Shown in pieces: positions 3,123 to 39,952 of a stretch of 50,983 nt of DNA. Each line of letters starts with the position of its first letter. Within the stretch, counting starts at the first letter, position 1. The notes beneath the pieces were generated by a model that saw nothing but the letters and a program-made list of their open reading frames with translations, was not told where the DNA came from and made no database searches. The stretch covers positions 1 through 50,983 of the forward strand of contig JADIMW010000060.1 in assembly GCA_017694415.1 (NCBI GenBank), given 5' to 3'. A program made the translations under genes and the position numbers. This DNA is from Candidatus Caccoplasma merdipullorum. GTDB lineage: Bacteria; Bacteroidota; Bacteroidia; Bacteroidales; G3-4614.

Positions 3123-4391
3123 ATGGAGAGGAAGGATATTGAGATAATGGCTCCGATAGGGTCGTACGACTCTTTGACGGCTGCCCTGCAAGGAGGGGCC
3201 GATTCGGTTTATTTCGGCGTGGAGGGGCTTAACATGCGCTCGCGCTCGTCGAACAATTTCACGCTCGACGACCTCCGGAATATCGCTTCGCAGTGCAGCG
3301 CACACGGGGTCAAGAGTTATCTTACCGTCAATACGGTTATTTACGACGGCGATATTCCGCTTATGCGCCGTATTGTGGATGCGGCGAAGGAGAGCGGCGT
3401 GTCGGCCGTTATTGCCGCCGACGTGGCGGTAATGTCGTATGCCCGCTCGGTGGGTATGGAGGTTCATCTCTCCACGCAGCTCAATATCTCCAATGTGGAG
3501 GCTCTCCGTTTTTATTCGCGTTTCGCCGACGTGGTTGTACTGGCTCGCGAACTGAACCTCGACCAGACGGCGGAGATTTATCGCGCCGTGTGCCGCGAAG
3601 GGATACGCGGCCCGAAAGGGGAGCTTGTGAGGATTGAAATGTTCGTCCACGGCGCGTTGTGTATGGCCGTGTCGGGCAAGTGCTACCTCAGTCTGCACGA
3701 GATGAACTCGTCGGCCAACCGCGGGGCCTGCATGCAGATTTGCCGCCGCGCTTATACGGTCAGGGACAAGGAGACCGATATTGAACTGGAGGTGGACAAC
3801 CAGTATATCATGTCGCCGAAGGATTTGAAAACGATACATTTTTTGAACAAAATGCTCGATTCGGGCGTTCGTGTTTTCAAAATAGAGGGGCGTGCCAGAG
3901 GTCCGGAGTATGTGAGGACGGTAACGGAGTGTTACCGCGAGGGGGTGGAGGCTTATCTCGACGGTTCTTTCTCGGAGGAACGTGTCGCGGAGTGGGACAG
4001 ACGGCTCGCAACGGTGTTCAACCGCGGTTTCTGGAACGGCTATTATCTTGGGCAGCGGCTCGGCGAATGGAGCTCGAATTACGGCTCGTCGGCTACGATG
4101 CGCAAGGTGTATATCGGGAAGGGCGTGAAGTATTTCTCGAAGTTGAAGGTGGCCGAGTTCCTTATGGAGAGCGGCGAGTTGTGCGCGGGAGACGAAATTT
4201 TGATAACGGGTCCGACTACCGGAGCGGTAACGATGCGTGCCGATGATATTCGTGTCGATTTGAAAAGTGTTCCTAAAACGGTTAAGGGGGAGCGGTTTTC
4301 GATTGCTACCGATATGAAGATTCGTCCGTCCGACAAACTCTTCAAGTGGGTTCCGAACGTGTCGCCCGACAAAGGGGATACGGAGCGGTAG
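3123..4391 (+). CDS. U32 family (collagenase-like) protein, TrhP/RlhA type
   Basis: 422 residues without a signal peptide. It carries the U32 family signature around residues 172-190 (E-x-F-x2-G-A-x-C ... G-x-C-x-x-S), followed by the NRGACMQICRRAY cysteine pair. The first half has the alpha/beta-barrel pattern MAPIGSYDSLTAALQGGADSV. Family members were first called collagenases, but E. coli TrhP (YegQ) and RlhA make 5-hydroxyuridine in tRNA or 5-hydroxycytidine in 23S rRNA, using iron-sulfur-binding cysteines. The length is closest to TrhP, so a tRNA-hydroxylation role is the better guess, but that is inferred from the family. It lies 10 bp after mutS. Confidence 0.85.
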   Translation: MERKDIEIMAPIGSYDSLTAALQGGADSVYFGVEGLNMRSRSSNNFTLDDLRNIASQCSAHGVKSYLTVNTVIYDGDIPLMRRIVDAAKESGVSAVIAADVAVMSYARSVGMEVHLSTQLNISNVEALRFYSRFADVVVLARELNLDQTAEIYRAVCREGIRGPKGELVRIEMFVHGALCMAVSGKCYLSLHEMNSSANRGACMQICRRAYTVRDKETDIELEVDNQYIMSPKDLKTIHFLNKMLDSGVRVFKIEGRARGPEYVRTVTECYREGVEAYLDGSFSEERVAEWDRRLATVFNRGFWNGYYLGQRLGEWSSNYGSSATMRKVYIGKGVKYFSKLKVAEFLMESGELCAGDEILITGPTTGAVTMRADDIRVDLKSVPKTVKGERFSIATDMKIRPSDKLFKWVPNVSPDKGDTER

Positions 4392-4510
4392 GCGTTTTCG
4401 GAGATTGCCGTTTTTTCTTTCCCTTTCCGGAACACCCGGTGCTGTCTTGTTTCCTGCCGATACCTGTGCGGTGTTTGTTGCGGTGCGTTCCCTCGCATCA
4501 TCTTTTCTGT

Positions 4511-5386
4511 ATGAATTTTGTTATTTCGGGCGCGTCCGGTTTTATCGGCGGCGCATTATCGAAACGGATTGCCGATATGGGCGGACGGGTTACGCCGCTC
4601 GAGCGTTCTGATTTTTTTCCCGAGAGCGCGGAGGTGCTTTCGGCCAAACTTGCCGATGCCGACGTGGTGGTAAATCTGGCGGGGGCGAACTTGAATGCCC
4701 GCTGGACACCGCAGTACAAACGGGCGATTCTTTCGAGCAGGGTGGAGACTACGCGACGTATTGTGGAGACGGTGAATGCTTTGCGGCGCAAACCTTCTCT
4801 GCTGGTCTCTACTTCGGCCGTGGGGATATATCCGTCGGCAGGGTGTTTCCGCGATTCGTCGCCTACGCGCGGCGACGGCTTTTTGTCGTATGTGTGCAGC
4901 AAATGGGAGGGGGAGGCCGTGAAGGTTTCGCCCGACGTGCGGCTGGTTATTACGCGTCTGGCTCCGGTGCTGTCGAAAACGGGTGGCGTCTTCCCCCTGA
5001 TGTTCGATGTTTTTAAAAAGGGGCTCGGTGCGAGGATTGGCAACGGCCGCCAGTATTTCAGCTGGATAATGCTGGAGGATTTGCTGCGGATTTACTGTTG
5101 GATTTTTTCGAACGACAAGATTTGCGGCAGGGTGAATTGCGTAGCTCCCGAGATTACCGACAACCGTACTTTTTCGCGCCAGCTTGCACGCGAGATGGAT
5201 GCGCCTGCTTTATGGATTGTCCCGAAGTTTGCGATGAGACTGGCGTTCGGCGAACGGGCGGTGCTTTTCAACGAGGGGCAGTGTGCGCTGCCGCACTTGT
5301 TGGAGGAGAGCGGTTTCAGGTTTTCCTATCCGCATATTTACGAGGCGCTTGCCGATTTGTGCAAGTCGGATTATATGATAGAGTAG
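4511..5386 (+). CDS. TIGR01777 family (YfcH-like) epimerase
   Basis: The protein is 291 residues from the ATG at 4511. The open frame extends upstream to 4346, but that part overlaps the previous gene and has no family resemblance, while the Rossmann start MNFVISGASGFIGGAL begins exactly at 4511. The NAD(P)-binding GASGFIGG is at residues 7-14. LAGANLNARWTPQYKRAI and LVSTSAVGIYPS are typical of the TIGR01777 subgroup of extended short-chain dehydrogenases. The substrate of this widespread family is not known. A long hairpin after the gene ends transcription before the convergent thioredoxin gene. Confidence 0.9.
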   Translation: MNFVISGASGFIGGALSKRIADMGGRVTPLERSDFFPESAEVLSAKLADADVVVNLAGANLNARWTPQYKRAILSSRVETTRRIVETVNALRRKPSLLVSTSAVGIYPSAGCFRDSSPTRGDGFLSYVCSKWEGEAVKVSPDVRLVITRLAPVLSKTGGVFPLMFDVFKKGLGARIGNGRQYFSWIMLEDLLRIYCWIFSNDKICGRVNCVAPEITDNRTFSRQLAREMDAPALWIVPKFAMRLAFGERAVLFNEGQCALPHLLEESGFRFSYPHIYEALADLCKSDYMIE

Positions 5387-36669: not shown

Positions 36670-38616
36670 TTACATTACGGTTTTGAATACCGCGTTGCCG
36701 CATTTTACTATGTAGAGTTTCCCTGCGGGGGCGGGAATCTCGGTAAAGGCATCCGATACCACACCGCTGTATATCAGCATTCCGTCGGCAGAATAAACAG
36801 CTATCGGCGTACCTGCCGCGGCGTTCTCGACCACTATGCGCCCCGCTGCGGCATATACCGTTACGTCGGCTGCCGCGTCGGCTGCAATCTCTTCTGTTCC
36901 CGAGAAGTCGGTTTCGACGATGTTGGTAAAATCTTTCCACCCGTCGGCAGCCTTGTAGGCATCGGCCGTTCCTTCCGGCACGTTAAGGATGCAGGCTTTG
37001 GTATCGACTTCGTAAAAGCACCAGCTGCTGCAAACGGGAGGGACTGTTGCAAGGGAGTTTATTTCGGTAAGGCTGCTGCATCCGAAAAAAGCAAAATCCC
37101 CTATACTCGTAACACTCTCCGGGATTGTTGCAGAGGCAAGGCTGCTGCATCCGGAAAAAGCAGAATACCCTATACTCGTAACACTCTCCGGGATTGTTAC
37201 AGAGGCAAGGCTGCTGCAACCGGAAAAAGCAGAACTCCCTATCGTTTCAAGGCCGTTACCCAAGGTAACAGAGGCAAGGCTGCTGCAATAGGAAAAAGCA
37301 GAATACCCTATACTCGTAACACTTTCCGGGATTGTTATTGACGTAAGGCTGCTGCATCCGGAAAAAGTAGAACTCTCTATGCTCGTAACCCCATCGGGGA
37401 TATTGATTGAGGTAAGGCTGCTGCAATTTTGAAAAGCACCTCCCTCTATTGTCTTTACATTATCGCCCAAGACTACGGATTTAAGACTTTTAATACCACT
37501 GAAATAAGACCCTACCGTTTCACAATTAATAGTAACCGATTCCAATGCATTGCAGCCGTCAAAAGCATATTCACCAATGGACGTAACCCCTTCGGGAATA
37601 TTTATCGAGGTAAGGCTGCTGCAATCGGAAAAAGCATAATCGCCTATAATAGTAACACTGTTTGGAATAGTGATTGAAGCAAGGCTTGTACACAAATAGA
37701 AGGCATCTTCACCAATGGACGTAACCCCTTCGGGTATATTTGTCGAGGTAAGGCTGCTGCATCCGAAAAAGGTTCCATTTTCTATTCTTGTAACTCCGGA
37801 AGGAATATTTACAGAAGAGAGGCTGATACACCAGGAAAAAGCATTCTCCCCTATCGAAACAACACTGTTAGGGATATTTATTGAGATAAGGCTTACGCAT
37901 TCTTCAAAAGCACTTTCCCCTACCGATGTAACCGCATAAGTTGTACCTCCGTAACTTACTGTCGCGGGAATCTCTATATTCCCGGTATATTTGTTATCCC
38001 CGGCAATTACCTCTACGGTTCTCAATTCCGAAGAAGTTATGGCATAGCGGATTCCGTCTACAGTAAAATAGTCCTCATACATGAACTCTTTCCACCCTTT
38101 GGCTGCCTTATAAGCATCTTCCGTCCCTACAGGTACATTGAGTGTACATTTATCTTTATCAACACTTGAAAAACAACCTTTTCCGCATGTGGGAGGGACT
38201 GTTGCCAAGCAGTTTATTTCTGTAAGTCTTTCACAACCCTCAAAGGCATAATCTCCTATCTCCGTAACTCCTTTGGGAATATTCACCGATATCAATCCGC
38301 TGCAAAATAAAAAAGCAGTGCGACCTATACCCGTAACCCCCTCGGGCATAGCAATTGATGTAATGTCCTCGCAACTTTCAAAAGCACTCGAGCCTATTAA
38401 AGTAACCGTATATGTAGAAGCACCGTTACTTACGGTTGAAGGGATTGCAATATCTCCGGAGTAACTGTTGTTCCCAAATGTAACTTCCACAGTCTTGTCC
38501 GCTTCGGAGGTGATGTTGTAATAGATGCCTCCTGCTTCAAAGTCGTACGCCACTGCGCTCAACGCCATACATAGAGCTACTGCCGTCAGTAAAAATTTAG
38601 TAATACTCTTTCTCAT
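36670..38616 (-). CDS. BspA-like leucine-rich-repeat surface protein
   Basis: 648 residues. A signal peptide (about 1-23, ending SAVA) is followed by two blocks of 23-residue BspA repeats (LRR_5; pattern C-x-S-L-x-S-I-x-I-P-x-x-V-T-x-I-G-x-x-A-F), with two DUF-like spacers (FTVDGIRYAIT and similar) between them. The C-terminus (about 585-648) ends YSADGMLIYSG ... LYIVKCGNAVFKTVM, a beta-sandwich tail resembling the type A sorting domains of type 9 secretion, although it lacks the usual final Lys-Lys. Such proteins bind host matrix or other bacteria. The gene has no consensus promoter facing it in this assembly and lies behind a probable invertible promoter (38701-38891), so it may be OFF. Confidence 0.88.
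   Translation of the reverse strand: MRKSITKFLLTAVALCMALSAVAYDFEAGGIYYNITSEADKTVEVTFGNNSYSGDIAIPSTVSNGASTYTVTLIGSSAFESCEDITSIAMPEGVTGIGRTAFLFCSGLISVNIPKGVTEIGDYAFEGCERLTEINCLATVPPTCGKGCFSSVDKDKCTLNVPVGTEDAYKAAKGWKEFMYEDYFTVDGIRYAITSSELRTVEVIAGDNKYTGNIEIPATVSYGGTTYAVTSVGESAFEECVSLISINIPNSVVSIGENAFSWCISLSSVNIPSGVTRIENGTFFGCSSLTSTNIPEGVTSIGEDAFYLCTSLASITIPNSVTIIGDYAFSDCSSLTSINIPEGVTSIGEYAFDGCNALESVTINCETVGSYFSGIKSLKSVVLGDNVKTIEGGAFQNCSSLTSINIPDGVTSIESSTFSGCSSLTSITIPESVTSIGYSAFSYCSSLASVTLGNGLETIGSSAFSGCSSLASVTIPESVTSIGYSAFSGCSSLASATIPESVTSIGDFAFFGCSSLTEINSLATVPPVCSSWCFYEVDTKACILNVPEGTADAYKAADGWKDFTNIVETDFSGTEEIAADAAADVTVYAAAGRIVVENAAAGTPIAVYSADGMLIYSGVVSDAFTEIPAPAGKLYIVKCGNAVFKTVM
37069..37206 (-). 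repeat. Tandem 69-bp repeats inside the BspA-like gene
   Basis: Two adjacent 69-bp units (37069-37137 and 37138-37206) differ at only a few positions, and a third, more diverged unit follows. Each encodes one 23-residue leucine-rich repeat. The near-identity suggests recent duplication and allows length change by recombination. Confidence 0.8.
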
Positions 38617-38700: not shown

Positions 38701-38723
38701 TCTCTTAGTAAGAGAAGAAAATA
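38701..38723 (+). repeat. Left arm of a 23-bp inverted repeat
   Basis: Exact complement of 38869-38891. The 15-nt core TCTCTTAGTAAGAGA is itself a palindrome around its central G, as in recombinase recognition sites. Confidence 0.9.
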
Positions 38724-38830
38724 ATATCGTAAATCCTGAGATTAATAAGTATTCCTGTTTGTAAACAATTGAAATTACAAAACATATGTGGTTACATATT
38801 AAGTATTTATTGTGTTTTATTTTTAATAAG

Positions 38831-38861
38831 TTTGTTATTATTAATATATTGGTTACCTTTG
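38831..38861 (+). promoter_or_regulatory. Consensus promoter inside the invertible segment
   Basis: TTTG at 38831-38834, a spacer of exactly 19 bp and TACCTTTG at 38854-38861. The start would fall near 38868, at the edge of the right repeat arm. Confidence 0.8.
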
Positions 38862-38868
38862 TCGAGGA

Positions 38869-38891
38869 TATTTTCTTCTCTTACTAAGAGA
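38869..38891 (+). repeat. Right arm of the 23-bp inverted repeat
   Basis: Exact complement of 38701-38723; carries the palindrome TCTCTTACTAAGAGA. The three bases TCG are also shared a little further inward, with three mismatches between. Confidence 0.9.
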
Positions 38892-38906: not shown

Positions 38907-38945
38907 AAAACGGGATATGCTTTATTTTAAGTCATATCCCGTTTT
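38907..38945. terminator. Strong bidirectional terminator beside the inverton
   Basis: A 13-bp perfect stem (AAAACGGGATATG and complement) with a 13-nt loop, A-rich before and T-rich after. It would end the transcript of the three-gene minus-strand operon (39068-45328) and also stop the rightward inverton promoter after about 75 nt. Confidence 0.85.
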
Positions 38946-39067: not shown

Positions 39068-39952
39068 TTACCACCCGAACGAGTAACGGAGCACTATGCC
39101 GAAGGCGTAGTTGTTGTATTTGGCGCCTGTTATGGTTTTCCGTTCGCCGTTTCCGTCTGTTATGGTGGCGTTCCATATCGGGGTGTAGTCCAGCCTGCCG
39201 TCGTTGTACTGCAATTGCGGCGCTGTGGAGTCGCGGTCGTATATGCTGCCTATTCCGTATTCTCCGTTAAGGCCGAGATAGAGGATGAATCTGTCGTCCC
39301 AGTCCCAGTTCCACCCTACTTCGGCATAGAGCGAGGCGTTTACGAGGTATGATAACGCTACATCTGTTCCCGTGTCGTAGTACATGGCGAATCCGTGGGA
39401 AGGGAGGTCGGTATAGGTGTGGTTTTCGTATGGGAAGTATCCGCTTGTTTTCAGCGTTTCGCAACTGATGTCGCTCCCTCCGCCGAGAGGTATGTTTACT
39501 TGTGCTCCGAGGCGGGCGTAGAAGCCGCTGTCGTGTTCGTACTGGGCGAATACGGGGATGCTGAGGTAGAATGCTTGTTGTTTGTCCTGAAGGTTGATGT
39601 ATGAGTAGTCGAAACGGAAATTGTTGATGTCGGAGCCTGTTGATACCGGTGGGATGGTTGTGGTTGTTATGTACGAATCGTTGAATGTGCCGAAGTTCAT
39701 CCGGCTTTGGTAGAGGCGGAAGCTGGCGCCTGTTCCTATTCCCCAGTTGCTGTTGAAGCGGTGCAGGTAGTTTATGCCTGCCGAGGTGCCTGCCATGGGT
39801 TTGTAACTGCCTAATTCGCTGCTGTAACATATCGACGAGAGGCCTCCGGTTATCTCGAACGATATTTCGTTGTCGAGTTTTTTCCCGAAACTTATTGTTG
39901 TAATGCTTGTGAGCAGCAGTGTTAATGCTGTTGTTGAGATTAGCTTTTTCAT
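39068..39952 (-). CDS. Outer-membrane beta-barrel protein (porin-like)
   Basis: 294 residues. A signal peptide (about 1-23) is followed by eight to ten amphipathic strands; the last ends FGIVLRYSFGW, with the aromatic C-terminus of outer-membrane barrels. It lies 4 bp downstream of the T9SS endopeptidase gene in the same operon and is terminated at 38907-38945. It is likely a small membrane barrel (OmpW/PorV-like in size), but the family is not certain. Closeness to a T9SS cargo suggests a role around secretion or anchoring of the peptidase; this is inference. Confidence 0.72.
   Translation of the reverse strand: MKKLISTTALTLLLTSITTISFGKKLDNEISFEITGGLSSICYSSELGSYKPMAGTSAGINYLHRFNSNWGIGTGASFRLYQSRMNFGTFNDSYITTTTIPPVSTGSDINNFRFDYSYINLQDKQQAFYLSIPVFAQYEHDSGFYARLGAQVNIPLGGGSDISCETLKTSGYFPYENHTYTDLPSHGFAMYYDTGTDVALSYLVNASLYAEVGWNWDWDDRFILYLGLNGEYGIGSIYDRDSTAPQLQYNDGRLDYTPIWNATITDGNGERKTITGAKYNNYAFGIVLRYSFGW

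Follow-up and report, generated by a model that had tools for sequence, protein, structure and literature searches.

The 191-bp segment at positions 38701-38891 (arms included) of the window, by which we mean the whole stretch of 50,983 nucleotides analysed, is very probably an invertible promoter that stands in the OFF orientation in the assembly, directed away from a gene for a BspA-type surface protein. A switch in this state had been proposed in a preliminary description of the locus, and the proposal is supported by five pairs of matching sites in the source genome, which belongs to a gut-type bacterium of the Bacteroidales, by a variable core that is matched between arms, by a fixed placement of the promoter, by a syntenic copy in a sister species that is reversed, and by a matching family of recombinases.

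The repeat, its promoter and the surrounding genes

The left arm (38701-38723, plus strand) and the right arm (38869-38891, minus strand) are 23 nt each, 100% complementary and separated by 145 nt, just as had been described, and an inverted-repeat search of the 51-kb window revealed no second perfect inverted repeat of this length. The core site TCTCTT-AGT-AAGAGA occupies 38701-38715 in the left arm; in the right arm it lies at 38877-38891, where it is read as TCTCTT-ACT-AAGAGA on the plus strand and equals the left arm on the minus strand. This 15-nt palindrome, earlier taken for a recombinase core, turned out to be the part of the site that is conserved throughout the family. It is likely the site of the recombinase, with the three central bases as the region of strand exchange.

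Between the inverted repeats, as in invertible promoters of the Bacteroidales type, lies a Bacteroides-type promoter (38831-38861, plus strand) with both consensus elements, a -33 TTTG at 38831-38834 and, after 19 bp, a -7 box of the form TAnnTTTG (TACCTTTG, 38854-38861). It reads away from the minus-strand BspA gene, as had been claimed. A profile derived from 93 invertible promoters in other genera gave this promoter 22.4 bits in the orientation that reads into the gene. As assembled, minus-strand sites directed at the gene reached 1.1 bits at most, which upholds the earlier statement that no consensus -7 box faces the gene. When the segment was scored separately, values of 22.9 for the plus strand and of -4.6 for the minus strand were obtained, the 99th percentile of the shuffles being 11. 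A sigma-70 scan of the region gave nothing above shuffles, as is expected of a Bacteroides promoter.

The gene that would be switched (36670-38616, minus strand, ATG at 38616) encodes a protein of 648 amino acids with a signal-peptide-like start, LRR_5 repeats (PF13306, E 3.5e-153) and a DUF6383 tail. The product therefore belongs to the BspA-type LRR proteins, in agreement with its earlier designation, and may function in adhesion or in interaction with host or phage. Immediately past the right arm, a strong terminator-like hairpin can form on either strand (38907-38945; -20 to -21 kcal/mol, z -4.6 to -5.2). It is kept in the sister species G007 and, despite its strong fold, it was not called by a generic terminator scan; it would halt transcription from the OFF-oriented promoter. 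Further on, an OMP beta-barrel-like gene (39068-39952, minus strand) converges on the switch and serves as a syntenic marker common to the sister species.

In the mechanism that we propose, both TCTCTTNNNAAGAGA sites would be bound by a tyrosine recombinase, the most probable candidate being that of contig C74. Strands would be exchanged across the central bases, where a match between the arms would be required, and the 191-bp segment would thereby be inverted. As assembled, the segment has a single good promoter, which points at the terminator-like hairpin, and the BspA-like gene would be silent (OFF). In the inverted state, transcription would begin some 7 nt ahead of the palindrome and run across the arm into the gene, giving a leader of about 108 nt (ON). 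This leader length and a start near 38723 had been predicted before, and both follow from the geometry, which places the start at about 38724. It is from the sequence that we infer inversion in the source strain, the enzyme performing it and its effect on transcription.

Matching sites in the source genome and a candidate recombinase

The source genome (G000; 2.10 Mb in 88 contigs, nearly complete) contains ten exact copies of TCTCTT-NNN-AAGAGA, nine of them within five inverted pairs and the tenth single on contig C61. Besides the window switch on C32 (core AGT, OFF), there are pairs on C54 (CAT, ON, toward an OMP_b-brl_2 gene), C88 (GAT, OFF), C58 (TAC, OFF) and C2 (AAT, one arm with one mismatch, OFF), and start-to-start spacing in the five pairs is 163-177 bp. 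Exact pairs at this spacing were found in three of eight genus members, four to five in each, whereas the reversed-pattern control returned zero. One switch of the TCTCTTNNNAAGAGA family in G006 adjoins the groEL gene.

A genome-wide profile search for serine recombinases (PF00239) found none in G000, and an invertase of the Mpi type was rejected on these grounds. Five PF00589 proteins are encoded, namely XerC, an extra XerC-like copy, XerD and the recombinases on C75 and C74; as none of the five lies on the contig of the window, a local invertase was rejected as well. Sites of the type present in the window are found next to tyrosine recombinases, of which G000 has a matching one that is intact. 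This C74 recombinase (L032:3369-4775) combines Phage_int_SAM_5 and PF00589 domains, retains its full catalytic set (R, K, R, H, Y), and shares about 50-63% identity with most of the at least 36 recombinases in the scanned switch loci, whose genes mostly end 15-44 bp (mode 32) from an arm. Named NCBIfam invertase models gave no match; only Xer-type and integron-integrase models appeared, far below their cut-offs.

C74-like genes are present in the five genus genomes with switch-like sites (G000, G004, G005, G007 and, with three such genes, G006). In G005, a pair with one mismatch adjoins the C74-like gene, and in G004 a site at a contig end does so. G001, G002 and G003 have neither a C74-like gene nor pairs, two of these genomes being only 84-85% complete. 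In G000 and G007, no switch is found beside the C74-like gene, so that the enzyme would act wholly at a distance. We regard it as probable that the C74 recombinase is the invertase of the window switch, with a target range that we infer. All of the matching switches in G000, at least five, are probably flipped by one distant recombinase, and besides the window switch the C74 enzyme would then probably also serve the ON switch on C54 and the OFF switches on C88, C58 and C2. With one enzyme for five switches, cells would differ in the surface proteins and lipoproteins that they display.

A real switch might instead be turned by another recombinase, since C74 lies on a contig separate from the window with no adjoining switch and the genome offers four other PF00589 proteins: C75, the extra XerC-like protein on C6, XerC and XerD. 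However, C75 adjoins its own, different repeat and shares about 29% identity at best with the recombinases beside TCTCTTNNNAAGAGA switches, against 50-63% for C74, and genes for XerC and XerD are also present in genus members without switches. We therefore consider this alternative unlikely and retain C74 as the favoured enzyme.

The repeat at C75 forms a second, different switch (L031:3296-3498) with arms TATCCGTTTTCTTATAAGAAACGGA 153 bp apart. It follows directly on the tyrosine recombinase gene (3511-4716), and among the genes downstream of it are two for kinase-like proteins (504-2087 and the contig start). On C6, the second XerC-like gene (L029:8545-9423) encodes a product 79% identical to that of the neighbouring xerC on the same contig. 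On a contig from a viral collection (L238:2015-3466), a TCTCTTNNNAAGAGA-family switch lies 60 bp from a recombinase, and several integrase-like genes are present as well; switches of this family may travel on mobile elements.

Orientation and site architecture in other genomes

The syntenic locus in the sister species (G007:C10) has the beta-barrel gene, the conserved hairpin, the switch and the BspA gene in the same order, and its promoter faces the BspA gene (ON). Terminator and flank are conserved between the two loci, but the inserts align only when one of them is flipped (z 3.6 versus -1.0), with moderate similarity mostly around the promoter. The opposite orientation is thus seen at the syntenic locus of another species; the assembly of the window's own species shows one orientation only.

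Four more BspA genes of G007 have a site about 60-90 bp upstream (on C27, at the end of C10, at the start of C11 and at the end of C17), and three of these sites are at very contig ends, on C17 (L239), C11 (L242) and C10 (L243). Across 81 metagenome-assembled contigs, seven switches lie at most 65 bp from a contig end where 0.54 were expected. Where both orientations are present together, assemblers are prone to break contigs; the contig-end switches therefore hint at mixed populations in the sample and are indirect evidence that both orientations were present in the sampled populations.

The promoter of the G007:C27 switch (L216:992-1196) is directed away from its BspA gene, and the cores of its two sites are direct rather than inverted (AAT/AAT), so that this copy is unmatched for inversion and possibly locked OFF. 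Together with the single orientation in the assembly of G000, this copy could suggest that the window switch, too, has decayed and is now locked OFF. The window arms, however, are perfect over 23 bp, the cores are matched, the promoter is intact and G000 encodes a catalytically intact recombinase (C74), and decay seems very unlikely to us in comparison with a functional switch.

A scan of 84,980 species genomes yielded at least 117 stretches and, after removal of duplicates, at least 121 pairs. Among the matches listed, 107 of 121 distinct pairs were core-matched, all of Bacteroidales type, with a few records labelled otherwise, for example as Clostridium or Lachnospiraceae MAGs; the 14 core-mismatched pairs among these matches came from other organisms or were direct repeats. 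In 94 of the 107 listed pairs, a strict -7 box is found inside one arm only, at a distance of 9-16 bp (mode 14), and in one pair inside both. Exact pairs at a G000-like spacing occur in 7 of 393 genomes of the order, indicating that the family is scattered, with the genus of G000 being rich in it. The window segment lies in an AT-rich region and each of its arms alone can fold as a 6-bp hairpin, but the notion of a chance inverted repeat, an RNA hairpin or a terminator element in place of a recombination site is hardly credible, given that the same site pairs, with variable cores that agree between arms and a promoter at a constant distance, recur at five places in G000 and at more than 100 in Bacteroidales, and that reversed-pattern controls returned zero.

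Tyrosine recombinases need identity in the strand-exchange region but no particular sequence there. Arm-to-arm identity in the family is complete over the core (matched pairs having been selected), 85% at the first inner base and at the background level some 6 bp away in either direction, and the central triplet occupies 25 of 32 possible classes. The TCTCTT/AAGAGA halves would accordingly represent the contacts of the recombinase and the centre the strand-exchange region. The lengths between sites (L048-L164) group around 137, 149 and 160 bp, and some longer ones measure 170-175; this clustering beats a smoothed null (0/5000) in a sample that is phylogenetically non-independent and for which the search window ended at 163. 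Steps of about 11-12 bp, close to one helical turn, suggest that the two sites need to lie on one face of the helix. With 14 bp as the commonest distance from -7 box to site, the start would fall about 7 nt ahead of the palindrome, so that ON transcripts would begin with the arm and might open with its 6-bp hairpin.

The central triplet could also act as an address by which one invertase serves many switches and exchange takes place only between partners of the same core; if so, switches would flip singly, without rearrangement on the scale of the chromosome. We give this reading a rather small chance. Cores drift between species, AGT in the window versus TAG at the syntenic G007 locus and CAT versus ATT at the C54 locus, and both arms change together. 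A strict rule of this kind is not supported: chance alone would give G000 five distinct cores in half of all cases (P 0.51), and one core can occur more than once in the same genome, as in G006 (CGT twice), G007 and Phocaeicola massiliensis.

Relation to known invertible promoters

Promoter inversion of surface genes is well known in Bacteroidales, and judged by its sequence features the window switch is a well-supported new example of this known type of on/off switch. Literature searches found no paper joining 'BspA' and 'invertible promoter' and none for the exact site sequence. In PMC4747536, Tsr19 (BF2766) of B. fragilis is described as a tyrosine recombinase with two promoters to invert, one local and one distant, with a -7 consensus of TAnnTTTG, surface products (EPS) and one target, IVp-II, that adjoins groES/EL; the same paper presents Tsr0667 as another master enzyme and cites the serine recombinase Mpi of B. 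fragilis for 13 regions including seven capsule promoters. As far as that account goes, the G000 system resembles Tsr19 in that one tyrosine recombinase would act on distant TAnnTTTG promoters of surface products, and by description the G006 switch beside groEL recalls IVp-II. The presumed C74 enzyme differs in having five distant switches and no local one, and the visible targets in G000 encode BspA-like proteins, beta-barrels and lipoproteins instead of EPS. With Mpi, again as cited there, it would share the principle of a single master invertase for many scattered promoters, but Mpi is a serine recombinase, of which G000 has none. Catalogues exist of Bacteroidota inverton groups, with their inverted-repeat motifs and neighbouring invertases (PhaseFinder, Jiang et al., 2019, as cited in PMC11892184 and PMC8748976), and these are alike, by the descriptions in the two citing papers, in their short inverted repeats, TTTG/TAnnTTTG promoters, adjacent tyrosine invertases and surface-protein targets.

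The architecture of the family provides a simple search rule for a large class of such switches: the two sites of a TCTCTTNNNAAGAGA pair share their core and are separated by about 134-163 bp, and a -7 box is located inside one of the arms at 9-16 bp. By this rule, switches and their state can be listed from assemblies without reads, and it also opens tests of how one recombinase serves many sites. With the window switch, and with five BspA genes behind such sites in the sister species, BspA-like adhesin-type proteins would join the surface molecules that are controlled by promoter inversion, here in an uncultured genus of Bacteroidales.
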